The translations under genes were made by a program, and so were the position numbers. From a virus, in the IMG/VR virus record IMGVR_UViG_3300005581_000030, positions 1 through 44,426 of that record: DNA of 44,426 nt. One strand, written 5' to 3'. Positions 4,171-41,901 of the stretch are shown here, one piece after another (the first letter of the stretch is position 1; each line of letters begins with the position of its first letter). The notes under the pieces were generated by a model that saw nothing but the letters and a program-made list of their open reading frames with translations, was not told where the DNA came from and ran no database searches.

Positions 4171-4185
4171 CCTCACGGCATTCGT

Positions 4186-4236
4186 TAGAACAAGGTCGCT
4201 CTCCCGCCTACGGGCGGGGGGGTGGCCCCCGTTCTA
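4186..4236 (+). terminator. GC-rich hairpin with UNCG-type tetraloop, probable end of early region
   Basis: CCCGCC (4203-4208) and GGCGGG (4213-4218) close a TACG loop, the C(UNCG)G type that is exceptionally stable in RNA. An alternative pairing is GGGGG-TGG-CCCCC (4218-4230). An outer stem TAGAAC (4186-4191) / GTTCTA (4231-4236) encloses both. No T-run follows directly, so it may act as a roadblock or RNA-stability element rather than an intrinsic terminator. Confidence 0.45.
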
Positions 4237-4325
4237 GGTTCCCTATTACTGACGGGTTCACATGTACACATCTTTTCTCTAAAAAAACCCTCGTAATTGA
4301 CTGGTTTTGACTTGTTTTTGGCAAA

Positions 4326-4440
4326 GTGGGTGGGGTGAAGTTTATTACATGGGGGGGGGTGTAATGAATTTCACTGGGGGGGTGTAATGAATTTCCCCCA
4401 ATAGAATAGAATCATAGAAAAGAGTTATATAGATACAGGG
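4326..4440 (+). other. G-run iteron cluster plus AT-rich tract (origin-like locus 2)
   Basis: Two near-identical units consist of a G-run (9 and 7 G) followed by TGTAATGAATTTC; they start at 4351 and 4376, with the TGTAATG blocks 23 bp apart. The second ends in CCCCC. A diverged third unit, GGGGTGAAGTTTATTACA, starts at 4332 and is also roughly an inverted copy of the unit core. An AT- and purine-rich stretch (aatagaatagaatcatag…) follows to about 4437. The same arrangement lies in the initiator gene at 39797-39890. The 4171-4474 stretch has no other gene. Confidence 0.6.
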
Positions 4441-4474
4441 TTGACAAATGGTTTTATTGGTTATTCTGGCAGGA

Positions 4475-20989: not shown

Positions 20990-23062
20990 ATGGCTGAATC
21001 TTTTTATGACCCGAATTTGATGGCTGAACAGCAGAGGAATGCGACTCAGTCTACAGCGGGTTTTGACGCTTTTATTAAGGAAAGACGAGAACAGCGGGCA
21101 CAGTACGACAAGTCTAAGCAAGAGCGTGAGCAAATGATTGCGGCGGCAGAGGGTCTTGCCGAGCACTTTGCTCCGCAGGGCGAATCTGCTCCTGCCTACA
21201 TTGCTAAGTTCCTTAAGAAGGCCGAATCTGGTGGCGGTGTCCAGCAGTTGTCTTCGCAAGACATCGGCAAGTTCCTTGGCATGCACCAGACTGTTGCTAA
21301 ACAGCAAGAGTTTGAATCTGGTCAAGCGGACAAGGCTAGCAGTATTGCCCTCCGTGGTGCACAGATTGATGCGTCTAGAGCCTCTATTCCGCACACACAG
21401 GCACAGACTAGGTCTTTGGCTGGTGAGGAAACAAGAAAGCAAGCCGAGTATGACAGAGCACAGGTTCTTAATAAGTTCCTTGCTGAAACACAGGGTGCTG
21501 ACATTGGCACTCCTACTAATACAGTTACCGCACCCAAAGGTGTTGGCATTGAAAAACCTACATTTAAAGACCCTAGAACTGGCGAAACGGTTGAAATTGA
21601 CCAGTCTTCGTACAGCGAAATGGGTCTGGATGAAAACGGGCGTGTTGTTGACAAGGATGTCTTCACCTATGTTTCGAGCCTTGGTGCTGAAGAACTGTCT
21701 ACCATCATTGGTCACCACTTGGCTCCCTCTGCCGAAGTTAACATCAACAAGGAAATCGATGCTAGCCGTCCCAGATGGAAGCAAGTCATTGGTCTAGAGC
21801 CAGAGGTTATCTTTGATAAGGGTGGTTCTAGAAAAGATATTATTGGGCCTAACGGTAAGATTGATAAGGAAAAGCCGTTTAGCAAAAATATCGATAAACT
21901 CATTGATGTTATTAACCACAATCCTAGACTTTTTCCTGGGGGTGTTCCTAGAACCTACAAGGGAAGAACCATCGTGCAGGGCTACACTTGGACTGGCAAT
22001 GGTCGAAAGACTACGCTGACAGCCCCCGAAGTAGACACGCTACAGGAATTTGTTATCGATAGACTGCGTGAGGGTGGTTACGAGGACTTGGCTAATGTTG
22101 GTACGCTCATTAAGGGCCATAGAGAAATCACTAAGGTTAATGACACAAACGCTCTTCAGTTTGAAAAGAAGATGTTTACAGAAACGGTTGAACAGAGAAT
22201 TGACGATGAGGCCGCTCTTGCTAGCATTCGCTATGACCAAGTAGCCGCCAGATGGAGAGCACAGGGTCTTCCTCCTCCCCTGCCAAAGGCCGCTTACATT
22301 GCGGCTAGCGTACCAGACCTTACTAAGGTTGTTCCTGTGTTGGACTTGAGTGGTAGACCTACTGGTCAATACAAGACCTATGTTAAGGTTGGCGACACTT
22401 GGAAGGACGCTACCGTTGAAAAGGGTACTGAGGCTAGTGACAAGGAGGCTTGGATTAATACGGAAGCCAGAGGTAAGGACAACATGCTTAACTTTAGCGG
22501 TCAGTATGGCAATATTGCCGTCAGTGGCAGGGCTACAGCCTTTGACGAAAAGGGTGTTAGAGAACTTTCTGAGACGCTAAATGACATGGATGCGTTCAAC
22601 GAAGCCATGGACACGCTTAAAACACTGTACGAAAGCAAAAGTTTTATTGACAGAGTTAATCCTGCCAGTGGTGTCCGTGCACAGATTAAAGGTCTTATTG
22701 CTAGAAACCAGCCTCTTATTAGAAAAATTATTCTTGGCACTGGTGTTGTGACTGAACCCGACCAAGCCAGACTTAACCAGTTGTTCAGAGACCCAGATTC
22801 GTTTGAAACTTGGTTTAACGATGCGGCTAATGTTGCTGAATTTGAGGCCATTAAGGGTGTCATGGAGCAAAAGGCCGTTGCTCTTTTAAATATGCATAAG
22901 GTCGTTCAGCCCAATGGACAGAGAGGATTTATGATTACTGGTAATAACAGTAAGGGTAGGGGTAAGGCTCTTGAACTTCTTGCCGTTCACCAGCAGGGAT
23001 ATAAATTGACTCCTGCCGATATTGCTGTCATCAAAAAGCACAACCCCGCTTTTGGACAATGA
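20990..23062 (+). CDS. Internal virion protein B-like (gp15 position)
   Basis: 690 residues from ATG at 20990. A TTG at 20984 would add two codons, but the ATG follows 'cggagg' about 10 bp upstream, one of the few Shine-Dalgarno-like sites in the genome. The protein is helical, with a basic N-terminus ('FIKERREQRAQYDKSKQEREQM'), a mixed central part and long helices near 540-640 ('LSETLNDMDAFNEAMDTLKTLYES'). By order it is the T7 gp15 counterpart, forming a periplasmic tube. No enzymatic motif is recognised. It overlaps the giant gene by 4 bp (ATGA). Confidence 0.65.
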   Translation: MAESFYDPNLMAEQQRNATQSTAGFDAFIKERREQRAQYDKSKQEREQMIAAAEGLAEHFAPQGESAPAYIAKFLKKAESGGGVQQLSSQDIGKFLGMHQTVAKQQEFESGQADKASSIALRGAQIDASRASIPHTQAQTRSLAGEETRKQAEYDRAQVLNKFLAETQGADIGTPTNTVTAPKGVGIEKPTFKDPRTGETVEIDQSSYSEMGLDENGRVVDKDVFTYVSSLGAEELSTIIGHHLAPSAEVNINKEIDASRPRWKQVIGLEPEVIFDKGGSRKDIIGPNGKIDKEKPFSKNIDKLIDVINHNPRLFPGGVPRTYKGRTIVQGYTWTGNGRKTTLTAPEVDTLQEFVIDRLREGGYEDLANVGTLIKGHREITKVNDTNALQFEKKMFTETVEQRIDDEAALASIRYDQVAARWRAQGLPPPLPKAAYIAASVPDLTKVVPVLDLSGRPTGQYKTYVKVGDTWKDATVEKGTEASDKEAWINTEARGKDNMLNFSGQYGNIAVSGRATAFDEKGVRELSETLNDMDAFNEAMDTLKTLYESKSFIDRVNPASGVRAQIKGLIARNQPLIRKIILGTGVVTEPDQARLNQLFRDPDSFETWFNDAANVAEFEAIKGVMEQKAVALLNMHKVVQPNGQRGFMITGNNSKGRGKALELLAVHQQGYKLTPADIAVIKKHNPAFGQ

Positions 23063-26000
23063 GCAAATCCTTTTACTATGATAATGCTGAATCACTCGAA
23101 AAGATTCGGCAAGACATGGCCTTTCTTGATTCGGTAAAAGACCCGCTCAAGAATCCTTACAACTTAGCGGCTAAAGAAGAAGCCCCTAAAGAAGACGATG
23201 TTCTTACTAAGGGTGAGCGTGAGGCTTACCTTATTGGCAACTATGCCAAGGGTGGGTATGTGCCTACCGCTGACGGCTACTTGGCCTATGAAACATGGAA
23301 GAAGCAGAACGAGCCTAGTGCTTGGGGTACTATCTGGGAGGCTGGTAAGCATGCTGTTTCCACCGTTGCTGGTGGCATTTACGACACGGTTGCTAGCGGT
23401 GACATTCTAAATCCGCTTACTGTTGGCGGTACTGTTGTTGAAAGTGGTGGCAGGGGAACCAGATACTTCGTCAACATGCTTGACCAAATCAAGTATGACC
23501 CGACCAATCCTATTCATCGTACACTATTTCAGCAGGGCACTCCCGAACAGAGATATGCCGACTTCCAGAAGGGCTTGGAATTCCAGCGTGAAACCGCAGA
23601 GATTGAAAAGGCTGGTTATTGGGTTCCTAAGAAGGAGTGGGATGTTGAAGGATGGAAGATTCGCACCTTTAACGAAAGTGGGGTAGCGGCTGGCGAGATG
23701 GTTCTCGACCCGTCCATCCTTATGCCTCAACTAAAGATTGGTTCGATGCTTGGTAGGACTGCACTTGGTTCTGCTATTACTAAGTCTGCGGCTAGGATTG
23801 CTGTCAAGGGTGCTAACCTTGCTGAAAGAGCGGCTATGAAAATTGAAGGTGGTGCTGGCAAGGTTGCTGGAACTGCCATGGGCATCTTTGAATACCCTGC
23901 CAATAAGGCTAGCGAGTTCCTTGGTATCGAAACACTTACTACATCTAATGGTAAGGTCATTGCTAAGGACTCTATTATTCGTGGTTCTGGTGTTGCTCTT
24001 GGCGTGGGTGCTTACCTTGCACAGATTCCGTTTGCGGCTCCCGTTGCTGGTATTTGGCTTGGTGCTAAGGTAACAGAAATTACTGGTAAGACCATCGCTG
24101 AAGCGTTGGGTCATGCTAAGACTCCGTCCTATTTGACGATTGCTGACAGGCTTGCCTACCAGAGCACCGACCCTGCTGTCCGTGCTATCGGTGGTATTGC
24201 TATGCGTACCAACGGATTTACCGATTGGGCTACGCAGGGTGTTAAGTCCACATTCCACGGCTCCATGTATGGTGGTGCGTTTGGCTTTGCCCTTGCTGGC
24301 GAAGAAGGTTTCTACAGCGGGGTCGGTACTGGCATTGGTTTGGCTGGCTCGTTCCACATGCTTGGTGGTGCTTACGGTATCGTGGGCAACAGAAAGGAAC
24401 GCCAGATTGCCAACGCTCAGAAGCATTTTTCTTATGTCGCTGAAGGCTTTGATGAAGCCAAGCGTTATGGTGTGAACAGACTGCTACAGAACATTGAGGA
24501 AGTTTACGGGCAGGAAAAGATGTTCAGAACGATGGCTAACATTGCCGCCGCTGAGCGTTTTAACAAGAACGGCAAGAACCTTATTCTTACAACGGAACAG
24601 ATTCAAAGCATTCTTGGCGATTCTCCCGATTGGGCCGAGTACCAGAAGTTGATGAAAGACCCGCAGTTTGGTGGCTACACTACCAGACGGGCTGGTAGCG
24701 GTGAAATTGTAACTATTATCAATGCTGACTATGCGGCTCATTCTGCCGTGAGCGGTGAACTGTTTCACTCTGCGTTGCTTCAGCGTTACGGGCAGGGCAT
24801 GAAGGAGCATATTGTTAAGAGCCTCCTTGGCACTGCCGACAGCGATGGCTTCCTTTACAAGTTGGCTCCAGAAACTAGAATCAAAATGCTTGAAGACTTC
24901 AAGCGGGCTTACCTTGAACTGGATGACACTTCTGGTGGCGGTGCTCAGCGTTCTATGCTGAAGTCTTTTGACGAAGCCATCGAACGGGTTAAGCGTGGAG
25001 AGAAACCCGAGACCCTTTACCCTATCTTTGAAGAGTATGCCGAAGCGTACTTCAACAGATGGGTGGAAGACAAGCCCATTGACTACCTGCTTCGTGGCTC
25101 CAATCCGTTTGAATCCGTCTTTGACGGTGCTAAGAAGATGGTCAGAGGGCTTATCGATAGAGACATCGAACAGGTTGGCGGCAGAATGCAGTTTAAGTCT
25201 GGAGAACCAGAAGGGTTCTTCTTAGACGGCAACGGCAAGCGTGTGGTTGTTCCAGAATTCGACAAGGTCATGCGTCTACTTGTCCGTGAGATGAAGAGAG
25301 ACCCCGATGCCCTTGAAGGTTTCCCTATCCGAGACAATGTTAACCAGCACCATGTAATGCTTAAGGATGCTGAATACCTGTTTACAAAGGACGAAAGCGG
25401 TAAACTGGTTCGCAAGAACGAGGAGCAGATGGAAGTGGAATGGTCTAAGGGCATCACTGGACTAATGAACGCCCATGCTAAACTTAAGCCAGAAGAGAAG
25501 GGGCTTAGATTTACTCAGCGTGTCCTTTCGGCAGTTGAAGAAGATGTCGAAGGTGCGTTTGCCCCCAAGAGCAAGAAGGCTACCGAACTTGAGAAAGAGG
25601 CTAAGCGTCTTGAAAAGATTACGAAGCAGAGACAGGCTAAGTTGCTTCGTGAAGCGGCTCGTGCGGCTAAGTTGTCCGACAAGGAACAGCGTAAGTTGGC
25701 TAGAGAACAGGAGTCCAACCTTGACGCAGAAGTTGAACAATTAAGAGAGCAGTCTGAATACGAAGGTGTCGTTGAATACAAGATTGAGGGTTACATGACC
25801 GATGCTGAAATCAACTTGTTTACCGAACATCTTCCCAAGGCTGTAGTCCAGCGTATGGCGGCTTTTAACAGAGTCATTCATACCAAGGGTTCTGACGGCA
25901 ACAATGCTCTCAGATTTGATTATGAAAGCGAAACGAGCCAAAACTTCTCTTACACTAAGGAAGGTTCTCCGACTGGTGCAGGTAATGAGAAAAATAGTGG

Positions 26001-29000
26001 AAGAGTTAAAACGCGTGATATCGTCCCTTATGAAATGATTCTTAAGTTTGAGCGAAAGAGACTGACCAAGTCGCTCAGAGCAAAGTATGGCATTGACGAT
26101 GCAGACGCTATGTATGCCGCCATTAAGCCAGTGTTGCTTGTAAACGGAATCGACATGAAGGCGTTGGACAGACGAGTCCGCTACGCATACAACCACATGC
26201 GTAGACAGAACGCCACCAGTTCCATCTCGTCTGCCACGGTAAAGATGTACTACGAGTCGGAGGAAGAGATTCACCACGACATCAAGAGACTGCTTGGCAA
26301 CTACAGCCTTGGTGACATTGCCATGGCTGGTGCTGACTTCTTTGGTGGTGGCTCCGAGGGTCGTGCCAAGCGTGACATTATCAATGGCATCATTGGTGCT
26401 AGACCTGTACGCTTTAGCCCCGACAAGATGCAGAAGAAGGGGTATCACTACCCGCTTGACCTTCAGAGACCCATGACTGGCCCGAAGTCCAGATACGAAG
26501 GCGGGCCTCTTAACGAAGCGTTCATGGCGTTTACCTCTTTCAGAGTGGATAGAATGCTAGACAGACCTAAGCACCTACATGGTGAAGGTTTCTACTACGA
26601 CCACGACTACGCTCACCCCATGAACAAGGGCAACTTCCAGCCCCGCTCTAAGGCTCTGCGTGACCATGTCGGCAGACCTCTTAGTTATTCCGAGCGTCAG
26701 TTGCAGGACGAAACTGTTTTCAAGAGTCCCAGTGGTGAGCCTTACAGAGTCTTTGCCAGCAACAAGGAGGGTGGTGTTCATTACGCTTGGTTCGATGAAG
26801 GCCGAGCCGTTGACAACCATAGCCAGCATACCGAAGGCTACATCTCTCTTAGAAATAATGAGGTGCTGGACATGCTTAATGACGGCAAGATTGATTCCGT
26901 CAAAGACTTAAACGCCGACTTCATGCGTAAGGTAGCCGACATGGGCTACAAGGCTGTTGTTGCCAGAACAAACGATGGTGACCGTGTGGTTGCCTTCACT
27001 GACTTTAACAAGTTCAAGCAGACCGATGTGTCTGCCTTTGACCAACTGCTTGGCAACTTTGCCCCTAAGAGCAGAAGCATTGCCGAGATTACAAGAGAGC
27101 GTCTTGGTCTTACTGGTGCTACGCCCGCTACTCCCGAGGCTGGCAAGCCTATGACTCTGGCTGAGCGTACCAGAGCCAGACTTGGACTTCCTCAAAGTCC
27201 CGTTGAAATGCTTGCTGAGCGTACCTTCGGTGTGCCCAAGGCTGAACCAATCAAGATTGATGTAGCCACAGACATTGTAGTTGGCACTCCCGAGCGACAA
27301 ATGTCCCCCGAACAGACGGCTAAGGTTCAGAAGTCTCTTGCAATTAGAAAAGGTCTTCTTGCTGAGCGTGGACTACAGGGTGAAATTAGAAAAGAGATTC
27401 TTACTAACAGAAGAAAGTTTGCAGAAGCAATGGCTAAGACCAAGGAGTTCAAGGGGTGGTCTTCCACTGAGGTCTTTGATTCGATGTACACAAGCATCTG
27501 GGGTGAAAATGCCACCATCTCTATTACAAGTGGTGGCAAGGTTTCCCTTGGTGTTATCCAGTCTCTTAGCCCCAAGGAGTATGGGGCTTACAGAAGAGAC
27601 GGTGTGCTTCCTTCCGACATCAAGCAGAGAACCATTGCTGACATTGATATGGCTTTGATGGAAAACTGGAAGCGTAGACACCTTCTCCAGCAGTCGCTCG
27701 CCAAGACTAAGGCCAATGTTAAGATTGCCTTTGATGAAAGGCGTAAGCAGGAGGCTAAGTATTCCACTGAACTCGATGCCATTAGAAATGAACTTATTCA
27801 GATGCTCGCTTCGTACAAGATGTTCGATGTGGCTGATGATGTTCTTGGTGCTGAAATTGGAAAGAAGCGTGTAGGCCAAACCTACCGCAAGGAAGTAACT
27901 CCCGAAGTTGGTGGTTGGACTCCAGCCAAACAGATTACCGCACTGAACAGTCCCGATACTTTTGCCCAGTCCAAGGACAGGGCGTTCTCTTATAAGACCC
28001 TAAAGGCTTTGTATCCTTTGCTTGGCAGAACAGACCCTATTACTGCCATGGATGTCTTGTCTTTGGCAACGCCCGAGATGAAAGACATCCGAAAGGAAAT
28101 GAGCACGAGTGCTCTTAAGCATGTCATCGAGGAATTCAACCAGTACAACCTTGTTGAACACAGAAAGTGGCTTGCCGATAAGCAGAAAAGTCTAACGCAG
28201 TACGCCAAGGAGAAGGAGAAACTGGACAATGACATTAAGTCCGCTGAGTCTACCAGCAAGAAATACGACACCTCCGAGGCTAGAGCCAGAAGCAATGAGT
28301 TGGCTTCTAAGATTCGTGAAACAGAAAAGTCGCAAGACCCCATCATCGAAGAATGGAACATGCAGGACTACAAGGAGGAGATGGTTCACGAACTCCTTCA
28401 ACTTAAGCCAGACGAAAGAGCGGAAAGCATTGATGCATATAGAAAGCAGTTCGACATTAGTGGCAGAACCGATGAATGGCCCGAGGTCGAACAACTGCTA
28501 ATTAAGAGTGGCATCCTTCCCCCCGAGAAGATGACCAAGGAATACGGAAGAATCGTAGAAGTTAATGATGGCGAGAGGCGTGTGCTTGGTGGCGTTTCGG
28601 AGAACTACAAGGATGCCATGGACGAGGCTTACCGAGTCCTACAGCAGTCCATGAAGAAGGACAAGACCATCACGCCCCTCCAGCGTTTCACCGTAATGAT
28701 GCAGTCTGTCGCCAGACACTATAAGAAGAACCCTGCTCTCCGTGAGAAGATGAAGCAGTTGGAATCCCTGTTCAAGGAGACGGAACAACTGACCGACTTT
28801 AACCTTAAGCGAGCGTATAAGAAGATGCTCGACTACGGCTTTGTGTCGATGAACTGGGACGGCGATGGAAAGAAAGTTGTCCTAGATGCCACTGGTCACT
28901 ATGTCGAAAGAGTAAGCCCGCCTAAGAAGGAGATTGGCATGGACTTCGGTAAACTTCGTATGCCCAAGGGCTGGACGATGAAGCAGGAGCGTGTTGTTCT

Positions 29001-32000
29001 TACCTCTACTGATGGTATCAAGGTATCCAACCATGAGATGGAGAAGGCCATCAGAGACATGCGAGCCAGATTTGGCGAACAACTTGAACAACTTAGTGAT
29101 GACCAAATTATTGAATTGGCAAAAGACAATAAGGCTGGCGTTGCTACTGAAACAGTTAAAGAAGGAAGAAGAATTGGAGAAGATAAACTAACAAACATTT
29201 ACCTTACTGGTGAGGCTAGAACCATTAGACGCTGGGCGGCTTTTGAAGAGCGTAAGGATAACACCTACGAAGAGACCGACTCTAGAATTATTTATGTTGA
29301 AAAGAAACCCAAGTACATCTTGGCTAAGGGTGTTAAGTCGGACAAGATGATGGTCATCCCTGTTTCTGAAACTACTTTTGACAAAAAGAAGGGTACTTTC
29401 TACTGGTCTCGTGACAGACAACTTAACGAAAAGACTAAGGCTCGTAGTTATTCTAACATTGAATCGTGGTTGGGCGAAGAAGGAACGGTGTTTAGGTCTG
29501 TTCACGACTTAACCCTTGGTGATACCTCCGATGTCTATGGTGCTTACAAGCCCAACGGCTGGCACATTGACGGCAAGTACTTCAAGACACAGGACGAAGC
29601 CAAGCGTCTTGCCGTTATCGATGCTGAAAACAACCACGCCTACGAAGCCGTCTACAAGACTGCTAAGCGGCTAGACAAGGATGCTTACATTACTGTTCTT
29701 CAAATGATTCAGAACAGCACTGGGATTACATACCAGAATGCCATCAAGGAAGCCATCGGGTTTCAAGGAACACGAAAGAAATGGATTGATAATCCCGACT
29801 ATAACCCGAACAAGCCTTGGTCTTTGCAGGACAATCCTCGCAAGATTCAAGTAAAGGAAGACTTCACTGGTGCTAATGTTCCTCCCGAGTTCAAGAAACT
29901 TGCCATCTATAGAGCGGGCAACATGTTGCTTGTTACTTCCGACAACAGAAGGGATGTTCTTACCAGACTTACTGCCGAGGCTAAGGTCTCTGTTAGGGGT
30001 GGAAGAACTAAGAACATTGAAGCGATTGCCCGTGAGGCTATCGGTGAGCGTGAAACAGGCAAGAAGGTGCTTGGAGACTTGTATAGAATCGTCAAGGACG
30101 AGAACGGTCAGATGGCTGGCATTGATTGGATTACCCATTACGACAACCCCAGACAGGTGTCGGAAATGATTACCAAGATGAACGACCAGTCTTATGTAGA
30201 CCTAGATACCGCCGTTGAATTCCAGCGTAGGCTTACAAAAGAAATTAAGCCTGTCCTTGCCAAGGCTTTCAAGGAAGAGAAGAAGAAGATTTACACGGTG
30301 CTTACTGAAAACCCGAAGAAGATTCGGGAAATTAGAAGCAGACTCAATGCTATCGAAGAGGCTCACGAAAAGTCCGTAGAAGACACTGGTATTATTATCA
30401 AAAAGGGACTGAAGCCTTCTGCTAAGAAAGACTTCATTAACAGAAACCTTGATAGGCTTAACCGCCAGACCAATGAACTTACTGACACCATTGAAAGGAA
30501 GTTGCATTACATTTTTACGATGGGCTTCCACAGAAGACCCGAAGTTGCTGAAAGACTTATTGGTGAAGGCAAGTACTTTGAAGACAAGACCAGCGTTGAT
30601 AATTACTACGAGGAAATTCTTGAAGACAGAAGACGGCAAAGATACATTAGAGACGAGAATGGTAATGTTCTAATTGAATATCCAGAAACTGATGCTCTTT
30701 CTACTAAGAAGAAGTTGGAAGACAGCCTTGGTGAAATCGAGAAGTCTTGGTCTGACATGATGCCGAAGAACAGGGCTACCGCTTTGCTTGAGGATGTGCT
30801 CAATGGTACATACAATGAAGAGCATGAACTTCTAACCAAGCAGATTGACTTCCTTAAGAGACAGTTATCCATGGCGGCTGGTGGCACTGAAAAGGTTAAG
30901 GCTGGTCTTACTGGATTAAGTATCGACAAGAAGGCTGGTGCTGGAAGATGGATTGGCCCTAAGGAACAAGCGGCTGAAGAGGCTAAACTTGCCAGAATTG
31001 AGAAAAGCATCCCAAAGAAGTATGAAGAAGTACCTCTTGGCACAGTCGAAAAACTCCTTGAGGGTACGCAGGGTCTTAGCGACAAGAAGGTTGAACGCTT
31101 CCCTACATACCTTCCTCCCGAAGGAGAATCGTTTGTGTCTGCCAGAGACTACTTAGATAGATTCCAGCGGTTGGTCAGCGACATTGCTGAAGCCAACAAG
31201 AAGTTTGGCGACTCCGCTTCTCTGGACAAACTAGACCTCCAGAAGATTCTGGACACCGATGCTGACCTGTTGCCTACCAAGGAAGTAGATGCCCATGTCG
31301 CTAGACAGGAGTCCCTTGATGCGATGAAGGACAACATTCGTAACATCGAGGAATACTTTGACCGTAGCACACAGCCTCAAGAAGGTAAGGACTTCAAGTC
31401 TGCCGTTGATGTTTGGGGACTTGCTGAAGGTCAGTGGATGGCTGAAATTAGCGAGAACAGAATCAATGCGGCTGTTCGTGCCGCTATGGAAGGAAGACAA
31501 GACCATGTCATTCTTGCCAATAGGGCTAACCAGAAAATCAAGACCCATTACGAAGGTATTATTAAGGCTAGAATGGCTGTTATTGATGCCAATTTTGCCA
31601 AACTTTCCCCAGAACTAAAGCCAATTTACATCAAGTATTTGGAGAGAGTCCGTGACGGTTTGGCTGTCGAGCGGGCGGCTGAACTGGAGCGTGTACAGTC
31701 AGAGATTGCTACTATCAATGAAACTGCTGTCGAGTATAGTCTGACACCAGACAATCCTAAGTTGGCTGGACTGCTGGCTAAGTGGCAGGAGTTGGGGATG
31801 AAGGGTGACCCTATGACGATGTACTCCTCCAAGGAGGAAAGCGTCCGTAGAATGTTCCCGTTCCTGTTCTCTGAATTCTATCCCAGCAGACAGGACATTG
31901 CTACCTCATCTTCCTATACCAAGTGGGAGTCCAGAGCCACGGACGAAGCGGTTGCCTCTGACACGACCAAAACTGGCAATAGACAGGGCATGAATGTCGG

Positions 32001-34026
32001 TGGTTTTACGACAACCAACCCGATTGTTGCTGAAGTTATTCGCAACGAACAGACAAGAAACAAGTTCCTTAGCATGCGTGGTCTCCGTGAGATTGACCTG
32101 TTTGCCGCCGCTCTTGCTAAAAAGAATGCTGTTGAAACGCAGTTCAACAATGGTGGCAAGGACGCTGTTGTACAGATTGATGCCGAAGGTTACGCCCTTC
32201 TTGAACGGTACTTCCCAGAACTTACTGAAGGCAAGGAAGGCCCAGATGGTAAGCCCATCTGGAAGATTAACTTCAAGATTAACAAGGAGGCTGGCTACGA
32301 GGATTCGTTTGCCACTGCTGGATACGCTAAGCGTGTGCGTGAAGAGAAGAAGGTCGGAGAGATTGCCCTAGAGGGCGGTCTCATTGACAAGGCTTTCAAT
32401 TACTTCTTGGACGAGGTGACCATGAACCAGTCCCACATCGAGCATGCTATTGCTAGACTCAGTGGCAAGGAACGACTGGCTGAACTTACCGCCCCAGAGA
32501 ACCTTTCCCCCAACGGCAAGATTGACATTAGAAAACTCAATGTCGAAGAACTAGACTTTGCTTTCCATGTGCTAGGCAAGGCTAAGATTACAAACGAAAA
32601 GGCACACATGTCGGTCATCGAACTGACGAGCAATCCGTTGTATGCCAAGAGCATGATTCTTGCCTTCTCTAGAAACAAGGAGGGTAGCCTACAGTCTATC
32701 TTTGGAGACGACCCTCAGAAGTCTGCCACCTTCCTTGCACTGAACCTTAGTGATAAGAAGAAGTTTGTTGACGAAATCGTTAGACAGATTGAATTCTCCA
32801 AGGACAAGATTGAGTCCGAAAAGGCTAAGTCCAACAAGGAAACCATTGATGCTTCCATTGCTACGGCTTGGAAGGTTAAGGAACTGGAGAAGATTTCCAA
32901 GGAGCAGGTGGATGCCGCCAAGCACCTGTTACTTGAGTTGGCTAAGACCGACTCTGCGGTCAAGGCATACAAGGGGAAGGTGGAACAGTTCTGGTCTAGC
33001 AGACCGCAAGCCAGAACAAACATCCTTAGCATCGATGACTCGCTAAAGTTGCTTTCTCCCAACATGGAATACGGCAAGGCTATCATTGGTGCTGACGGTA
33101 AGACCGTTGATGTTCCAGTTGCTAACCCCAACGATGCCTTGTTCAGAACGGCTAACGGCATGTTCCACGCCTTCAAGCAGGGTGGTTCGTACAAGTTGTT
33201 CTTCGCTGGCTACAAGTCTGCGGACGGAAATGTCAGCATTGCTCCGTCCCACATTATGACGGCTCCCGACCTACAGAGATTGCAGGTTGGCATTAGAATG
33301 TTCCATGACGATGTGAAGCGTGTGGAGGTCATGTCTAAAACCGCAACCGACAGCATTGAACTTAAGGGTGCTGAAGTTGCCTCGTTCTCTGGTTCGTTCT
33401 TTGAGACGCACGGTGGCTCTATTGCTCCCGACCTGTTGAAGGCTCTGCAATTTAACCTTGCCCAGATTGGCAACTACCCCGACACGACATGGCTGGTCAC
33501 GCCAGAGAGCGGTAACAAGAGACAGATTGTTATCTATCCTAACACCACTACATGGGACAAACTCCATAACAGCGGAGAATACATTAAGAAGGATGGCTCG
33601 TGGTATAAAGACCCTGCTGTGCAAAACGCCCAAGAGCGTCTTGACCGTGCCCGTCTTGAACTAGAAAGCCAGCAGGTTGCCGATGTCACTACGGCTGAAC
33701 CAAAGCCCAGCGAAATCATTTCCGAAACCGCCAACATATCCAAGCACGACCAGCCCGATGCAAAGGACAAGAGAGCCGAAGCCATCGACAACAAGGTGGT
33801 CATGCAGGTCATCGAAGAGGGCGACATCTATAATGGCACTAGCGTGGAACCCGCCATGCAGGATTGGACTGCTCTAAAAAATAGAGACGGATGGGTAGTC
33901 ATGCGGGAGCAGAGTCGTGATGCCAAGGGATGGAAGACTAGGTTCAAGACCTTCTTCCCCAGCGGTGTGCTTGCTGGCATTGATGCAAACGAGGAGGACG
34001 CTGTGTCCAGAATGTTCAATGAGTGA
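23059..34026 (+). CDS. Giant 3,655-residue ejection/polyvalent protein (gp16 position)
   Basis: At 10,968 bp it takes about 25% of the genome. By order it is the last of three ejection proteins (T7 gp16 position), but it is nearly three times gp16's length (1,318 residues). Residues about 225-445 are Gly/Ala-rich with several hydrophobic stretches (near 310-344 and 402-444) that could insert in membrane. Residues about 1220-1322 resemble ADP-ribosyltransferase-like domains of large polyvalent phage proteins ('PYRVFASNKEGGVHYAWF' … 'ADMGYKAVVARTND'). A short repeated linker (AE-x-TR-x-RLGL) follows at about 1340-1390. Long charged helices fill most of 830-3400. I found no lysozyme-type, helicase, methylase or HExxH motif. 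Confidence 0.75.
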   Translation: MSKSFYYDNAESLEKIRQDMAFLDSVKDPLKNPYNLAAKEEAPKEDDVLTKGEREAYLIGNYAKGGYVPTADGYLAYETWKKQNEPSAWGTIWEAGKHAVSTVAGGIYDTVASGDILNPLTVGGTVVESGGRGTRYFVNMLDQIKYDPTNPIHRTLFQQGTPEQRYADFQKGLEFQRETAEIEKAGYWVPKKEWDVEGWKIRTFNESGVAAGEMVLDPSILMPQLKIGSMLGRTALGSAITKSAARIAVKGANLAERAAMKIEGGAGKVAGTAMGIFEYPANKASEFLGIETLTTSNGKVIAKDSIIRGSGVALGVGAYLAQIPFAAPVAGIWLGAKVTEITGKTIAEALGHAKTPSYLTIADRLAYQSTDPAVRAIGGIAMRTNGFTDWATQGVKSTFHGSMYGGAFGFALAGEEGFYSGVGTGIGLAGSFHMLGGAYGIVGNRKERQIANAQKHFSYVAEGFDEAKRYGVNRLLQNIEEVYGQEKMFRTMANIAAAERFNKNGKNLILTTEQIQSILGDSPDWAEYQKLMKDPQFGGYTTRRAGSGEIVTIINADYAAHSAVSGELFHSALLQRYGQGMKEHIVKSLLGTADSDGFLYKLAPETRIKMLEDFKRAYLELDDTSGGGAQRSMLKSFDEAIERVKRGEKPETLYPIFEEYAEAYFNRWVEDKPIDYLLRGSNPFESVFDGAKKMVRGLIDRDIEQVGGRMQFKSGEPEGFFLDGNGKRVVVPEFDKVMRLLVREMKRDPDALEGFPIRDNVNQHHVMLKDAEYLFTKDESGKLVRKNEEQMEVEWSKGITGLMNAHAKLKPEEKGLRFTQRVLSAVEEDVEGAFAPKSKKATELEKEAKRLEKITKQRQAKLLREAARAAKLSDKEQRKLAREQESNLDAEVEQLREQSEYEGVVEYKIEGYMTDAEINLFTEHLPKAVVQRMAAFNRVIHTKGSDGNNALRFDYESETSQNFSYTKEGSPTGAGNEKNSGRVKTRDIVPYEMILKFERKRLTKSLRAKYGIDDADAMYAAIKPVLLVNGIDMKALDRRVRYAYNHMRRQNATSSISSATVKMYYESEEEIHHDIKRLLGNYSLGDIAMAGADFFGGGSEGRAKRDIINGIIGARPVRFSPDKMQKKGYHYPLDLQRPMTGPKSRYEGGPLNEAFMAFTSFRVDRMLDRPKHLHGEGFYYDHDYAHPMNKGNFQPRSKALRDHVGRPLSYSERQLQDETVFKSPSGEPYRVFASNKEGGVHYAWFDEGRAVDNHSQHTEGYISLRNNEVLDMLNDGKIDSVKDLNADFMRKVADMGYKAVVARTNDGDRVVAFTDFNKFKQTDVSAFDQLLGNFAPKSRSIAEITRERLGLTGATPATPEAGKPMTLAERTRARLGLPQSPVEMLAERTFGVPKAEPIKIDVATDIVVGTPERQMSPEQTAKVQKSLAIRKGLLAERGLQGEIRKEILTNRRKFAEAMAKTKEFKGWSSTEVFDSMYTSIWGENATISITSGGKVSLGVIQSLSPKEYGAYRRDGVLPSDIKQRTIADIDMALMENWKRRHLLQQSLAKTKANVKIAFDERRKQEAKYSTELDAIRNELIQMLASYKMFDVADDVLGAEIGKKRVGQTYRKEVTPEVGGWTPAKQITALNSPDTFAQSKDRAFSYKTLKALYPLLGRTDPITAMDVLSLATPEMKDIRKEMSTSALKHVIEEFNQYNLVEHRKWLADKQKSLTQYAKEKEKLDNDIKSAESTSKKYDTSEARARSNELASKIRETEKSQDPIIEEWNMQDYKEEMVHELLQLKPDERAESIDAYRKQFDISGRTDEWPEVEQLLIKSGILPPEKMTKEYGRIVEVNDGERRVLGGVSENYKDAMDEAYRVLQQSMKKDKTITPLQRFTVMMQSVARHYKKNPALREKMKQLESLFKETEQLTDFNLKRAYKKMLDYGFVSMNWDGDGKKVVLDATGHYVERVSPPKKEIGMDFGKLRMPKGWTMKQERVVLTSTDGIKVSNHEMEKAIRDMRARFGEQLEQLSDDQIIELAKDNKAGVATETVKEGRRIGEDKLTNIYLTGEARTIRRWAAFEERKDNTYEETDSRIIYVEKKPKYILAKGVKSDKMMVIPVSETTFDKKKGTFYWSRDRQLNEKTKARSYSNIESWLGEEGTVFRSVHDLTLGDTSDVYGAYKPNGWHIDGKYFKTQDEAKRLAVIDAENNHAYEAVYKTAKRLDKDAYITVLQMIQNSTGITYQNAIKEAIGFQGTRKKWIDNPDYNPNKPWSLQDNPRKIQVKEDFTGANVPPEFKKLAIYRAGNMLLVTSDNRRDVLTRLTAEAKVSVRGGRTKNIEAIAREAIGERETGKKVLGDLYRIVKDENGQMAGIDWITHYDNPRQVSEMITKMNDQSYVDLDTAVEFQRRLTKEIKPVLAKAFKEEKKKIYTVLTENPKKIREIRSRLNAIEEAHEKSVEDTGIIIKKGLKPSAKKDFINRNLDRLNRQTNELTDTIERKLHYIFTMGFHRRPEVAERLIGEGKYFEDKTSVDNYYEEILEDRRRQRYIRDENGNVLIEYPETDALSTKKKLEDSLGEIEKSWSDMMPKNRATALLEDVLNGTYNEEHELLTKQIDFLKRQLSMAAGGTEKVKAGLTGLSIDKKAGAGRWIGPKEQAAEEAKLARIEKSIPKKYEEVPLGTVEKLLEGTQGLSDKKVERFPTYLPPEGESFVSARDYLDRFQRLVSDIAEANKKFGDSASLDKLDLQKILDTDADLLPTKEVDAHVARQESLDAMKDNIRNIEEYFDRSTQPQEGKDFKSAVDVWGLAEGQWMAEISENRINAAVRAAMEGRQDHVILANRANQKIKTHYEGIIKARMAVIDANFAKLSPELKPIYIKYLERVRDGLAVERAAELERVQSEIATINETAVEYSLTPDNPKLAGLLAKWQELGMKGDPMTMYSSKEESVRRMFPFLFSEFYPSRQDIATSSSYTKWESRATDEAVASDTTKTGNRQGMNVGGFTTTNPIVAEVIRNEQTRNKFLSMRGLREIDLFAAALAKKNAVETQFNNGGKDAVVQIDAEGYALLERYFPELTEGKEGPDGKPIWKINFKINKEAGYEDSFATAGYAKRVREEKKVGEIALEGGLIDKAFNYFLDEVTMNQSHIEHAIARLSGKERLAELTAPENLSPNGKIDIRKLNVEELDFAFHVLGKAKITNEKAHMSVIELTSNPLYAKSMILAFSRNKEGSLQSIFGDDPQKSATFLALNLSDKKKFVDEIVRQIEFSKDKIESEKAKSNKETIDASIATAWKVKELEKISKEQVDAAKHLLLELAKTDSAVKAYKGKVEQFWSSRPQARTNILSIDDSLKLLSPNMEYGKAIIGADGKTVDVPVANPNDALFRTANGMFHAFKQGGSYKLFFAGYKSADGNVSIAPSHIMTAPDLQRLQVGIRMFHDDVKRVEVMSKTATDSIELKGAEVASFSGSFFETHGGSIAPDLLKALQFNLAQIGNYPDTTWLVTPESGNKRQIVIYPNTTTWDKLHNSGEYIKKDGSWYKDPAVQNAQERLDRARLELESQQVADVTTAEPKPSEIISETANISKHDQPDAKDKRAEAIDNKVVMQVIEEGDIYNGTSVEPAMQDWTALKNRDGWVVMREQSRDAKGWKTRFKTFFPSGVLAGIDANEEDAVSRMFNE

Positions 34027-37323: not shown

Positions 37324-38010
37324 TTAGTAGGGGTCTTGCTCGGACGACTCGGAGGCCGACTTGATGGCAAGAAGAGCCTGTGCCGACTTCTTAAGAAGCA
37401 AGTCCTTGGGGTTTACCTTGCCAGTCTTTTCCCACGGCTTAGGCTCCCAAGTGTTAGCCCAGTACTGGAGGTCACTCAACGGCAGGTTGTTAAGCGTAGT
37501 ACCCTTGTTCTTGCCAAACGGGACAGGAAGGTCGAAGTTGGGTTCACCGCTTGAGGTCTGCGGGGCAGGAGCAGGGTTGTTGAAGGTCTTCGTGTAGGTG
37601 GGCATCACGGGAGTAGCGGCTTGCCCATCGTCATCATTGGTAGCCACGCCCGCCACGGAGGCCAGCGAGTATCTCCGAATGTACGAGATAATGGAACCAG
37701 CCTTCTGCCCGTCCATCTTGTCATCCTGCTTAATGAGGCAGTCAGTTTCAAGGGAGCCACCGTCAGCATGGATGACGATGGTACGGACACCAACACCCTC
37801 GCTGTTTCCAATGGGGCATTGCACTACGGCAAGACCATGCTTGGCGAACACAGGCTTGATAGCCTTGAGGTGGGCAGACAGGCTGGCGTAAGAGTTCTTA
37901 TGAAACGGATTGGTAGAGTCAGCAATGACATCTTCCAGTTCGGCAATAGCAAGCACGAGGGACTTGCAGAGGGCGGCTTGACGGTCTTCAAACGACATAT
38001 CGGTAGACAT
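37324..38010 (-). CDS. erf: ERF-family single-strand annealing protein
   Basis: 228 residues. The core (about 30-130) shows ERF features: 'NPFHKNSYASLSAHLKAIKPVFAKHGLAVVQ', beta strands 'GVRTIVIHADGG', and 'QKAGSIISYIRRYSLASVAGVATNDDDG', the family's GSaiTYarRYaL…ddDdD block. The C-terminal part, 'PVPFGKNKGTTLNNLPLSDLQYWANTW' (about 162-188), resembles the C-terminal module of exodeoxyribonuclease X-like proteins. ERF rings anneal complementary single strands; here it would work with the RecE-type exonuclease encoded upstream to recombine or circularise phage DNA. Confidence 0.9.
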   Translation of the reverse strand: MSTDMSFEDRQAALCKSLVLAIAELEDVIADSTNPFHKNSYASLSAHLKAIKPVFAKHGLAVVQCPIGNSEGVGVRTIVIHADGGSLETDCLIKQDDKMDGQKAGSIISYIRRYSLASVAGVATNDDDGQAATPVMPTYTKTFNNPAPAPQTSSGEPNFDLPVPFGKNKGTTLNNLPLSDLQYWANTWEPKPWEKTGKVNPKDLLLKKSAQALLAIKSASESSEQDPY

Positions 38011-38425: not shown

Positions 38426-38879
38426 AGTAGTGTTTTACAAATCTTGCAACGCCATTCTGCTTAACTGTCGGGGCGAGTCGGACAGAGAAATTGATGCGTT
38501 TCGCTCCAGCCCACCCCATGGTGTACATGAGATAAAGCACTTCTGGACTAGGTCTTTGTCCGTGTAACTTGTAATATTGGTCAGAGAGTGTTTCACAGTA
38601 GGTTCTCGCCATGGCTCTTGCCACGGTCTCCAATGGCTGTGTAGAGTACGCATATGTCGGCAGTGAAGACTTCGCACGGATGGAGTTGACATAGTTCCAT
38701 GTGGGTAGCCAGATTTGGTACGATGATACGCTCCTCCCCGCATCGCCAAGTGACGGTATCCCCCGTGTTTCTGCAAACGATATCGAATCGAGTGTCTTGT
38801 CAATAGGGTCTGCATTTGCGACCAATACTGAAGCGAGGTAGAATAGGAGTCTCGTGGATACCACATTAGGAAGCCCCAT
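38415..38879 (-). CDS. Secreted lytic transglycosylase-like endolysin
   Basis: 154 residues. The N-terminus (VVSTRLLFYLASVLVANADP) is a signal peptide or signal-anchor. The mature part shows a lytic transglycosylase pattern: 'ISFAETRG' with probable catalytic Glu37, then 'GDAGRSVSSYQI' (45-56), equivalent to the G-x-G-x-x-x-G-x-Y/LMQI segment of the family. C-terminal 'YLMYTMGWAGAKR' resembles the following helix. It would cleave peptidoglycan after secretion. It is the only cell-wall enzyme recognised in the window, yet it sits in the replication operon, about 4 kb from the holin and on the opposite strand. Confidence 0.7.
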   Translation of the reverse strand: MGLPNVVSTRLLFYLASVLVANADPIDKTLDSISFAETRGIPSLGDAGRSVSSYQIWLPTWNYVNSIRAKSSLPTYAYSTQPLETVARAMARTYCETLSDQYYKLHGQRPSPEVLYLMYTMGWAGAKRINFSVRLAPTVKQNGVARFVKHYYGK

Positions 38880-39555
38880 AGATTTTGAAGTAGTCTTTGA
38901 TTCTGCGGACGATGGCTACACCAGTCTCGGTGTTGTTGAACCTGTCGCTTAGACCCGTACCGTTATAGTTCGTGGTGATGATGGTCGCCCGCTGGTTGGC
39001 GGTACGCTCGTCAATAATAGCGAACAGGTCGGTCTCCATGCGTGGGGTCAGACGCTCCTTGCCTAGGTCATCGATGCACAGGATGGTCGTATTAATGAGT
39101 CGGTCAAGGATGTCACCATGGTTGCCGTCCTTGAAGCCTTGCTCGATTTTCTGTTCCAACTTACGCATGGTAAGGAACTCAGCGTGACGAGGGTAACATT
39201 TAAACCATGCATCGTTGAACATACGCCATGCCGCACGGGTCTTCCCCGTGCCCGTCACGCCATGGAGCAGTACGCTGTCGGTATGGTTGCCTCGGTACTC
39301 GCTCAAAGCCTTCTGCATGGCAGGAGAGAGCATCGTATCGATGGTGGCGATGAACGCACTAGGCGTGTTAGGATGCAGACGCTTGAACGCCCACTTATTC
39401 TTTTCAAACACATCCTTGTACACATACGGGTACTCAAAGTGTTCCTTGGTCTTGAAGCAGTCCAAGCAGACTGCTACATACGGTTTGAACTTCTCGCTGT
39501 GCATGTCCCAGACTGGGACTGCGTCAGCATTACAGTGAATGCATTTAGAAGCCAT
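38866..39555 (-). CDS. DnaC-like AAA+ helicase loader
   Basis: 229 residues. A zinc-finger-like N-terminus (CIHC 5-8, CLDC 30-33) precedes an AAA+ ATPase: Walker A GVTGTGKT (99-106), Walker B ILCIDDLG (158-165), sensor 1 TTN (194-196) and an arginine pair (217-218) consistent with an arginine finger. This matches DnaC/IstB-type loaders that place the replicative helicase on DNA. It overlaps the initiator gene by 11 bp; together they parallel lambda O and P in function. No phage helicase is seen, so host DnaB is the likely client. Confidence 0.9.
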   Translation of the reverse strand: MASKCIHCNADAVPVWDMHSEKFKPYVAVCLDCFKTKEHFEYPYVYKDVFEKNKWAFKRLHPNTPSAFIATIDTMLSPAMQKALSEYRGNHTDSVLLHGVTGTGKTRAAWRMFNDAWFKCYPRHAEFLTMRKLEQKIEQGFKDGNHGDILDRLINTTILCIDDLGKERLTPRMETDLFAIIDERTANQRATIITTNYNGTGLSDRFNNTETGVAIVRRIKDYFKIYGAS

Positions 39556-40201
39556 TGGCGTGGTCTTGTGAGGTTAGGCGTTTTTTGTTTTTGGTGGCGT
39601 TGTCGTTCATTACAAAAATGCCCGTCCAGCCAAAGGCAATGCTTTTGTTAATCGATGCAACAGCGGACTCTTCGCTCTGCCACGAGGCCAGCATGCCCAA
39701 TTGCTCCTTGATGGTCGTAGGCTTCATGGCCTTACGAATCTCTTTGCGGTATCCTACCCACTTCTCCCAAGCATGCTTAAAAGCATCTCCATACGGAAGC
39801 ACATGTGTATCTTTATCCTCTTTTTTATCTTCTTTACTATATGGGGGAAGTTCATTGCACCCCCCTAGGGAAACTGGGTTCACCCCCCCCGTGCACTTTT
39901 TTTCCTCCCCTGCCTTAAGCAGGGCTTGGCGGGCCACCGTCCGCAGGTATCGGACAGAGCCTTGAGCGTTGCTCTCTAGCACACGGGTAATGACACCTGC
40001 GTCCAGCAGGTCACCTACGATGTTCTTCACCTGTCGCTGGGATACCCCTAGGATGCGTCCCAGATACCCGTTAGAGGCATAGCACCCGTCCTCCCCATCC
40101 AGACCGTCAATGATGCCATAGGCCATCTTAGCGGTCACGGACAGGTTCTCGTGCTCCAGAATTTCCCTCGGGAGCCAAACACCAGTAAACTTGGGGTTCA
40201 T
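39545..40201 (-). CDS. Replication initiator (lambda O / DnaD-like organisation)
   Basis: 218 residues. Residues 1-90 form a winged-helix domain ('NLSVTAKMAYGIIDGL', 'CYASNGYLGRILGVSQRQVKNIVGDLLDAGVITRVL'), as in phage initiators. A Gly/Pro/Lys-rich linker (about 97-135) follows. The C-terminal domain contains 'WEKWVGYRKEIRKAMKPTTIKEQL' and 'SINKSIAFGWTGIF', the conserved 'SI..GW.G.F' block of DnaD/O-like proteins that contacts loader or helicase. The linker is encoded by DNA carrying G-run iterons (39843-39890), just as lambda's origin lies within O. The start at 40201 overlaps the exonuclease stop. Confidence 0.82.
   Translation of the reverse strand: MNPKFTGVWLPREILEHENLSVTAKMAYGIIDGLDGEDGCYASNGYLGRILGVSQRQVKNIVGDLLDAGVITRVLESNAQGSVRYLRTVARQALLKAGEEKKCTGGVNPVSLGGCNELPPYSKEDKKEDKDTHVLPYGDAFKHAWEKWVGYRKEIRKAMKPTTIKEQLGMLASWQSEESAVASINKSIAFGWTGIFVMNDNATKNKKRLTSQDHANGF
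39797..39890 (-). other. Candidate replication origin inside the initiator gene
   Basis: On the - strand, G8-TGAACCCAGTTTCCC (39890-39868) is followed by G6-TGCAATGAACTTC-C5 (39865-39843). An AT-rich, purine-biased stretch of about 45 bp follows (atatagtaaagaagataaaaaag…). Two tandem iterons about 25 bp apart, then an easily melted tract, is the layout of lambda-type origins. The second unit differs at only two core positions from the units at 4351-4399. It lies in the linker-coding part of the initiator (residues 104-120). Confidence 0.6.
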
Positions 40202-40980
40202 TATTTTAGGTTCAAGGTGTCGATACTGTAGTCAGAGATGCCAGCGTACTGGTCATGCTCCAGACACAAATTCAAATTCACCAGACCTAGGGAGACCTTC
40301 TTCTTGCAAGCCTCCATGAGCGTGTCGCTGATGGTCACCACAGCCACCGCATACGGAGCGGTCTTCTCGACCACGATGAACTGAAAACGGAACGGCTTGC
40401 CGTACATCTTTTCAGCCAGCAGGGTATAAAACGCCATCTGTACCCAGTAGCGTCTATCCTGCAATTCGTAGGTAAAGGACTGCATCGAAGCCCCGTTCTG
40501 GGTCGTCTTGATGTCCGCTAGGATACCGCACTTGACGCACACGAGGTCGAGTTTGCCCTTACACTTCACGCCCTCCAGTTCGGCAACAATGACCTGCTCC
40601 TTCTCGGCCTTGGAGATAATATTCAAAGCCGTGGTATGCGTGGTAATGGCGTTGACGCATCCTTCCACCACCGCACGAGACTCGCCCTTCAAAACGGTCT
40701 TTCCGTTGCTCGCTTCCACGAACTGTTCCCAAACCAACTTGTCCGCAGTCTTGCGTCTGTCCAAGCCAAGCGGGGCGAAAGCCACGGTCTTGTGGAAGTT
40801 GTTCGGTTCAAGCACCAAGGTATGCACGGCAGTGCCAATACGCATCTCCTCGGTCTCGTCTGGTTGCTCTTGGTTGTTAAAGTGCAATGGCGATGTGAAG
40901 AACGCCTTGAACTTCGATGCGTTTAGGTAAGGGAGAGAGCGGTAAGCCTTCTCCGTGATGTTTAGGACTTCGGTATTCAT
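40201..40980 (-). CDS. RecE/PDDEXK-type exonuclease
   Basis: 259 residues. It has the layout of the C-terminal nuclease of exodeoxyribonuclease VIII (DUF3799-like): 'LNASKFKAFFTSPLHF' at the start, GTAVH (49-53), a possible Glu at 134, then the PD-(D/E)xK core KGKLDLV (141-147) and ADIKTT (155-160), and the helix YWVQMAFY (178-185). It degrades 5' ends of double-stranded DNA to leave 3' single strands for annealing. The annealing partner ERF is four genes downstream. It overlaps the initiator gene start by one base and the RusA gene by 4 bp. Confidence 0.88.
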   Translation of the reverse strand: MNTEVLNITEKAYRSLPYLNASKFKAFFTSPLHFNNQEQPDETEEMRIGTAVHTLVLEPNNFHKTVAFAPLGLDRRKTADKLVWEQFVEASNGKTVLKGESRAVVEGCVNAITTHTTALNIISKAEKEQVIVAELEGVKCKGKLDLVCVKCGILADIKTTQNGASMQSFTYELQDRRYWVQMAFYTLLAEKMYGKPFRFQFIVVEKTAPYAVAVVTISDTLMEACKKKVSLGLVNLNLCLEHDQYAGISDYSIDTLNLK

Positions 40981-41432
40981 TGTGTGTTTGTTTGTTTGAA
41001 CAGTACCTGCACCGATGGCTCGATGCTCCAGTACTTCTCAATGGTTATGCTCCAGACTTGGCTGTCGTCAAGCCAGTATCCGTTTTTAGTGAACAAGTCC
41101 AAAATTACTTTGACCGCATTGTCGCAGTCGGGCTTAGTCGTTTTTACAATTGTTTTACACTTGTGAATCTTTCGTAAAAGATATTTTGGAGGACTGTAAA
41201 GCAATTTAATATGGACTTGTACGGCTCCCTCCATGGGCTTAGCAGGTCTGGCTTCGGCTACCCATGGCTCAAATGTACGCATCCATCCAACAATCTTGCT
41301 GTTCTTCATTTTACCCACAAACATCTTGCCCGTCTTAGATTTCAAGACCCGCAAAGCGGCTTGGTGGGTGCTAGTCGGAGGCTCGTGGGGAATAACAAGC
41401 CAAGTTTCTGTTTGACCTAGGAAGTCGTGCAT
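40977..41432 (-). CDS. rusA: RusA-family Holliday junction resolvase
   Basis: 151 residues from ATG at 41432; a longer frame to 41549 is rejected because it would cross the promoter and the divergent gene. The signature is K100-PDCDN (101-105) followed by 'VKVILDLFTKNGYWLDDSQV' with DD at 122-123. These match the acidic residues (PD.DN…DD..V) of RusA. The N-terminus is longer than in E. coli RusA (120 residues). It resolves branched DNA before packaging. First gene of the - strand operon. Confidence 0.88.
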   Translation of the reverse strand: MHDFLGQTETWLVIPHEPPTSTHQAALRVLKSKTGKMFVGKMKNSKIVGWMRTFEPWVAEARPAKPMEGAVQVHIKLLYSPPKYLLRKIHKCKTIVKTTKPDCDNAVKVILDLFTKNGYWLDDSQVWSITIEKYWSIEPSVQVLFKQTNTQ

Positions 41433-41437
41433 ATAAT
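41412..41437 (+). promoter_or_regulatory. Sigma70-like promoter for the HTH gene
   Basis: A perfect TATAAT (41432-41437) on the + strand lies 8 bp before the ATG at 41446, with TTGACC at 41412-41417. The 14-bp spacing is shorter than ideal. Transcription would start at or next to the start codon, giving a leaderless or nearly leaderless message. The -10 overlaps the RusA start codon on the other strand. Confidence 0.45.
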
Positions 41438-41445
41438 GTGTTTTT

Positions 41446-41901
41446 ATGGAATACGAATCCAAGTACGAGCGTGTCAAGTCCGATTCAAAGGATGGTAACC
41501 AAGAAAATCTTGAGCCAGAAAAACGCGAAAAGATTGAATGGATGACCAAAGAAGGTCACACCCAGAAGGAAATCGAGGCAGAAGTTAAGGTCTCTAGCCA
41601 TACCGTTGTTGCTGTACGCCAGCAAATGGGTGACAATGACATCGATATTGGAAATTACAAGCGTCAGACCGCTGACCTGTTTAAGAAAATTGTAATGAAG
41701 GGAGCACACAGGCTCAATACCGAGATTGACGACATCCCTATTGGCATGATGCCAGTTTCTTTGGCTATCCTTATTGACAAGATTGCCGTCCTCCAAGACC
41801 AACCTACTGTCATTATCGAAAACAGGCTCAAAATTTCTCACGAACATTTGAATAAAATGCTTGAAGGCGAAATTATTGACCTGCCAGACGAGCCAAAATG
41901 A
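41446..41901 (+). CDS. Helix-turn-helix protein, candidate small terminase or regulator
   Basis: 151 residues. After a charged N-terminus, residues about 27-60 read as a helix-turn-helix ('REKIEWMTKEGHTQKEIEAEVKVSSHTVVAVRQQM'). A helical central part ('RQTADLFKKIVMKGAHRLNTEIDDIP', then 'LAILIDKIAVLQDQPTVIIENRLKI') and an acidic tail (EGEIIDLPDEP) follow. HTH plus helical oligomerisation region plus acidic C-terminus is how many small terminases look, and no other candidate is near terL. A transcriptional regulator is the main alternative, given the divergent, overlapping promoters. Confidence 0.6.
   Translation: MEYESKYERVKSDSKDGNQENLEPEKREKIEWMTKEGHTQKEIEAEVKVSSHTVVAVRQQMGDNDIDIGNYKRQTADLFKKIVMKGAHRLNTEIDDIPIGMMPVSLAILIDKIAVLQDQPTVIIENRLKISHEHLNKMLEGEIIDLPDEPK
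41448..41477 (-). promoter_or_regulatory. Sigma70-like promoter for the replication operon
   Basis: On the - strand, TTGACA (41477-41472), an 18-bp spacer and TATTCC (41453-41448) lie 15 bp before the RusA start codon. It is embedded in the first codons of the divergent HTH gene. The two promoters therefore face each other across about 15 bp and should interfere, giving a switch-like arrangement. Confidence 0.55.

Follow-up and report, generated by a model that had tools for sequence, protein, structure and literature searches.

Where an uncultured phage starts to replicate its DNA, and at how many sites, is the question raised by the replication region of IMG/VR record IMGVR_UViG_3300005581_000030, a phage known from environmental sequence alone. 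The whole record, 44,426 nt long, was analysed and is called the window below. An initial annotation had placed a lambda-like origin, built from G-run iterons, inside the gene of an O-like initiator. SPP1 is a well-studied phage with one origin in its initiator gene and another outside it, and the reading that we favour, with a probability of about 0.7, is that the present phage similarly carries two copies of one lambda-type origin module for its own winged-helix initiator. The module is composed of three hyphenated-palindrome iterons with a spacing of 22-24 bp, with G/C runs between them, and of an adjoining AT-rich, purine-biased stretch of about 40 bp on one side (Table 1). The two ends of the window (positions 1 and 44426) have a 15-bp direct repeat in common and contig G001, 98% identical to the window, spans their junction, which makes the record either circular or circularly permuted. 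The two modules therefore lie about 8.9 kb apart via the early region, with their AT tracts pointing outward.

Table 1. Positions in the window of the two modules and of the genes for DNA replication and recombination.
Feature	Position	Strand	Basis
O-like replication initiator, 218 aa	39545..40201	-	PHROG 678/270/391, AlphaFold2 model, Foldseek
DnaC/IstB-like helicase loader	38866..39555	-	PHROG 50, E 8.6e-24; Pfam IstB_IS21, E 4e-12
Exonuclease (exonuclease VIII-like, PDDEXK)	40201..40980	-	PHROG 412, E 3.2e-54
RusA-like Holliday junction resolvase	40977..41549	-	Pfam RusA, E 7.3e-21
ERF-like single-strand annealing protein	37324..38010	-	Pfam ERF, E 1.8e-20
Intragenic iteron 1, degenerate: AGGAAAAAAAGTGCAC	39891..39906	-	register from L002/L003; 23-bp spacing
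Intragenic iteron 2: GTGAACCCAGTTTCCC	39868..39883	-	register from relatives
Intragenic iteron 3: GTGCAATGAACTTCCC	39845..39860	-	of the three, nearest to the non-coding units
Intragenic AT-rich purine tract, 38 bp, encodes YSKEDKKEDKDT	39806..39843	-	duplex stability; similarity to the non-coding tract
Non-coding iteron 1: GTGAAGTTTATTACAT	4335..4350	+	palindrome scan
Non-coding iteron 2: GTGTAATGAATTTCAC	4359..4374	+	repeat
Non-coding iteron 3: GTGTAATGAATTTCCC	4382..4397	+	20 bp repeated exactly from the region of iteron 2, 23-bp spacing
Non-coding AT-rich purine tract	4400..4439	+	fourth-lowest duplex stability among the window's 45-bp stretches

The initiator matches the PHROG 678 family annotated 'replication initiation O-like' (E 9.5e-15); PHROG 391 is also O-like, and the relation to O is distant. 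The protein has an N-terminal winged helix, a disordered linker at about residues 100-138 and a C-terminal helical domain. Its AlphaFold2 model (mean pLDDT 77) displays helices at residues 22-34, 44-51 and 55-68 and a wing at 71-88, the linker being of low confidence around 100-130. The helix at about 55-68, which includes residue K59, is the predicted recognition helix. Foldseek gives as best matches of the model the RepA_N plasmid initiators 4pt7/4pql (E 1.7e-4), and also 5kbj; for the RepA_N winged-helix fold the Foldseek probability is 1.00, but the TM-scores are 0.28/0.43. A Pfam scan of the initiator yields no RepA_N hit, only sub-threshold HTH_36 (PF13730) and RP-C. The adjacent DnaC-like loader reported by the initial annotation is borne out by its PHROG 50 match, and its gene overlaps that of the initiator. 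No phage helicase or polymerase is found among the larger ORFs of the window, to which the scan was mostly confined, in agreement with the same annotation. A 3655-aa ORF at 23059-34026, a quarter of the genome, has no Pfam or PHROG match. A search for the host through related genes in genome contigs returned distant matches only, spread over several phyla.

The DNA encoding the linker carries on its minus strand three 16-bp hyphenated palindromes at intervals of 23 bp, reading 5' to 3' AGGAAAAAAAGTGCAC, GTGAACCCAGTTTCCC and GTGCAATGAACTTCCC separated by G-run spacers, and then the AT-rich purine tract CATATAGTAAAGAAGATAAAAAAGAGGATAAAGATACA. Two units, 25 bp apart and each starting on a G-run, had been described here. 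The G6 and G8 runs do each begin a GTG... unit. The register set by the relatives gives three units (at 39845, 39868 and 39891), and GGGGGGTG, present in the linker at 39858 and 39881, sets their spacing at 23 bp; the earlier description is thus only partly right. Nor is the G-run the iteron: the repeated element is the hyphenated palindrome, the G/C runs point either way in relatives, and these runs serve mainly as spacers. GGGGGGTG occurs five times in the window for 0.92 occurrences expected, a count reached in 0 of 100 shuffles; three of the five copies belong to another cluster, in non-coding DNA at 4217-4384. The linker of the window gene has 23 bases in G/C runs, twice the synonymous expectation of 11.6. 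The AT-rich, purine-biased tract is present as annotated and falls within the least stable 0.12% of all 45-bp stretches in the window; it is a candidate unwinding element. The three-palindrome score of the intragenic array is 26, equal to the synonymous mean and reached by 994 of 2000 synonymous shuffles.

Relatives were gathered by a protein query (34 loci) and by an alignment query (80), and 57 genes were aligned. The linker layout recurs in these 57 genes with differing palindromes, such as GGCAAAAAATTGCC, AGCCGAAAAATCGGCT, ATGCACCACAGTGCAT and ATGCGGAAAACCGCAT. Shuffling of synonymous codons, which preserves the protein, combined with a generic three-palindrome scan as score, reveals that the palindrome triplets of relatives' linkers, spaced by 22-23 bp, are matched by only 0-6 of 2000 shuffles in 16 of 18 genes. 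As a control, the palindrome scanner recovers the annotated iterons of lambda O (0 of 500 shuffles). The genes that fail are those of the window, of its twin G001 (495 of 2000) and of G003 (237 of 2000); by this test the intragenic arrays of L001 and L003 are degenerate like that of the window. Conservation of the linker DNA beyond the needs of the protein, a check put forward by the initial annotation, is found in the genes of relatives and not in the window's own palindrome array. In 49 of 51 genes the linker has more G/C-run bases than its synonymous shuffles have on average, and looking for conserved initiators devoid of linker G-runs consequently leaves the origin reading standing. With 103 G-runs and 62 C-runs, both orientations are represented; the excess suggests that such runs are favoured, though not as a word tied to one strand.

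A second module is found in the gap between two ORFs at 4112-4447, within which every one of the six frames is interrupted by stops over 4320-4447. Its iterons are spaced by 24 and 23 bp, and a TTGACA hexamer lies just past the AT tract, at 4441-4446, as in the relatives printed. With two near-identical units, this non-coding copy is better formed than the intragenic one. It had been overlooked; the lambda-type module does reside in the gene, but the existence of the copy at 4335-4439 means that the intragenic array is not simply "the origin". Searching reference-phage DNA with the region of the non-coding array gave no match. In each of the 7 genomes tested, the window included, the intragenic copy is closer to the non-coding copy of that genome than is any of 1000 synonymous shuffles. 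Similarity is likewise higher within than between genomes (double-centred diagonal 14.2 for a null sd of 3.4, relatedness contributing).

The two modules stand on opposite strands about 9 kb apart on the circle, and relatives that have the second module carry it about 8-9 kb from the initiator, also on the opposite strand (G002, G004/5, G006/12, G008/9, G011, G013, G027, G028, G031/32, G033 and G034). Twelve lineages analysed from the window's clade have it, as does every clade contig reaching that place; the clade contigs without it (G001, G003, G007, G010, G029, G030, G035, G051 and G052) stop short of it, as judged by position. Self-comparison and palindrome scans detect no second array in the single-array relatives G014-G026 and G036-G048. 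On the tree, the one-array/two-array trait is accounted for by a single change.

Several other elements were observed around these sites. At about 8950-9850 on the minus strand, G044 (L187) has an apparent tRNA cluster where the two-array clade has its module; the cluster precedes a homologue of the window's 169-aa gene, the downstream neighbour of the module. Upstream of the non-coding iterons the window can form an RNA hairpin at 4185-4238 (-42.7 kcal/mol for 4170-4250, z -4.7, 0 of 200 shuffles), which is not a standard terminator as it is without a U-run, and several relatives have at this position a GC-rich hairpin-like sequence and then a G-run. The 88-kb contig G028 (L146-L149) encodes two different initiators of the family with two iteron types, and possibly represents joined phages or a chimera. 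An Rfam match to RsaE in 4281-4374 (23.6 bits for a gathering score of 79) was attributed to chance, and the triplets of the AT tract, inspected by eye, do not fit the motif of a DnaA-trio.

Cumulative GC skew, another check proposed initially, points to neither array in particular. The skew minimum of the window falls within about 60 bp of the non-coding array, and upon masking of the array it stays there in only some genomes. A switch of GC skew is also found at the early/late boundary of the single-array relatives G014, G018, G036 and G043; skew was therefore not counted as evidence and was dropped as proof that the non-coding array is an origin. More generally, a sharp GC-skew switch is seen about 1.5-5 kb upstream of the terminase, with or without an array.

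Co-variation between protein and DNA is the main evidence suggesting that the initiator itself reads the palindromes. Among protein columns outside the linker, residue 59 has the highest mutual information with the half-site core; the linker columns that score equally high are themselves encoded by the array. Q59 occurs mostly with TGCA, R59 with GGCA/GGAA, and K59 with GGGAAA, or with AGCCGA if residue 57 is T. A core of the TGC type accompanies 17 of 19 Q59 genes versus none of 34 K/R59 genes, and the plain TGCA core is absent from the Q59 genes L120, L124 and L128. The near-sisters L112 (Q, ATGCAAG) and L115 (R, CGGCAAT) differ at both the residue and the core. On a tree built without the helix and the linker, residue 59 changes 9 times and the core 9 times, and the independent pairs on the starred branches agree in 4 of 4 cases (sign test p 0.125, with n=4 only).

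In lambda, iterons seed a nucleoprotein complex that opens an AT tract (PMC4488673, PMC7466680). A comparable course of events can be proposed here, in which the winged helix of the initiator would bind each palindrome through its recognition helix, as the co-variation suggests, and three bound iterons would, by analogy with lambda, build an O-some-like complex melting the AT tract. The C-terminal domain and the DnaC-like loader could then place a helicase at the melted tract, most likely that of the host because neither a phage helicase nor a polymerase is found among the larger ORFs. The lambda layout recognized by the initial annotation holds. As in lambda ori, imperfect inverted-repeat iterons 20-24 bp apart lie in the middle of the initiator gene, between the parts coding for the DNA-binding and C-terminal domains, with an AT-rich strand-asymmetric tract on one side and an O-like, if distant, initiator; the inverted repeats are clear in relatives and in the non-coding copy and weak in the window's intragenic copy. 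The differences are three iterons instead of four, homopolymer G/C spacers where lambda has its G/C tracts inside the iteron, a DnaC/IstB-like loader in place of P, an extra copy that lies outside the gene, and a wide range of half-sites among relatives. The predicted N-terminal winged helix, the linker encoded by origin DNA and the best fold match may also recall RepA_N initiators of the pSK41 and pSK1 type, and in the RepA_N plasmid pSK41 the Rep boxes lie within the rep gene (PMC5703833). Unlike the present phage protein, which has no Pfam RepA_N match, those initiators belong to Firmicutes plasmids, and the repeat sequence differs.

The closest parallel for the number and position of the modules is SPP1. 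Theta replication begins there at oriL, which lies in gene 38, and a further initiator-bound site in non-coding DNA, oriR, is proposed to stall the fork and to trigger the switch to concatemers (PMC6316719). By layout, both phages have two similar arrays of repeats with an AT-rich region, one in the initiator gene and one non-coding, about 13 kb apart in SPP1 and about 9 kb here, and both encode an exonuclease, an annealing protein and a resolvase. SPP1 differs in having its own DnaB-type helicase (gp40), of which there is no counterpart among the larger ORFs scanned here. Following this precedent, one copy may start theta replication while the other stalls the fork and leads to concatemers; the annealing protein, exonuclease and resolvase encoded nearby fit such a switch.

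It is possible, if doubtful, that within the clade the non-coding module is the sole working origin and that the intragenic one is an ancestral origin in decay, still partly visible because the linker must encode protein. Intragenic scores are lower in two-array than in single-array phages (medians 33 and 40; Mann-Whitney p 5e-5, relatedness ignored), that of the window being the lowest, and the near-identical units of the window's non-coding copy point the same way. Against decay, intragenic iteron 3 and its AT tract resemble the genome's own non-coding copy beyond synonymous shuffles in 7 of 7 genomes, the two copies of one phage are overall more alike than copies of different phages, and in paired comparison non-coding scores are not significantly above intragenic ones (p 0.125, a trend only). 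The converse proposal, implied by the initial annotation, is that the intragenic module is the sole origin and that the non-coding copy serves the initiator as a decoy or regulatory site. Single-array relatives must use the intragenic array if the module is an origin, since they have no other, but we consider this unlikely for the window, whose non-coding copy is the better formed and a full module including the low-stability AT tract.

Still less probable is that the arrays are operators, through which the initiator would turn transcription down or up, both of its own gene and from the late promoter that TTGACA hints at. The hexamer after the tract in the relatives printed and the position of the array at the early/late boundary would suit this role. 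An operator, however, needs no AT-rich purine tract, yet the tract is kept in both copies; moreover, the intragenic copy is in mid-gene, away from a promoter, and the protein is O-like and encoded beside a helicase loader, a dual role being possible. That there is no DNA element at all, the G/C runs and AT tract being a by-product of a low-complexity linker or an assembly error, is hardly credible: the palindromes of the window gene do score no better than synonymous shuffles, but the arrays of relatives, the window's own non-coding copy and the residue-59 co-variation contradict it.

Beyond the two-module reading, we tentatively propose that the second module arose once, inverted, at the early/late boundary, giving two directional origins, or an origin and a fork-arrest site, that would split the work under one initiator as the intragenic copy loosens; the iteron would be set by residue 59 together with some neighbouring residues, amounting to a natural recognition code across the family. 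One-module and two-module phages that are closely related are available for comparison, what separates them falls on a single branch, and the intragenic array is weaker in those with two modules, which makes the role of the second origin directly testable by this comparison. The pairing of half-sites with residue 59 offers candidate orthogonal initiator-iteron pairs, and the layout can guide the annotation of origins in phages that have not been cultured.
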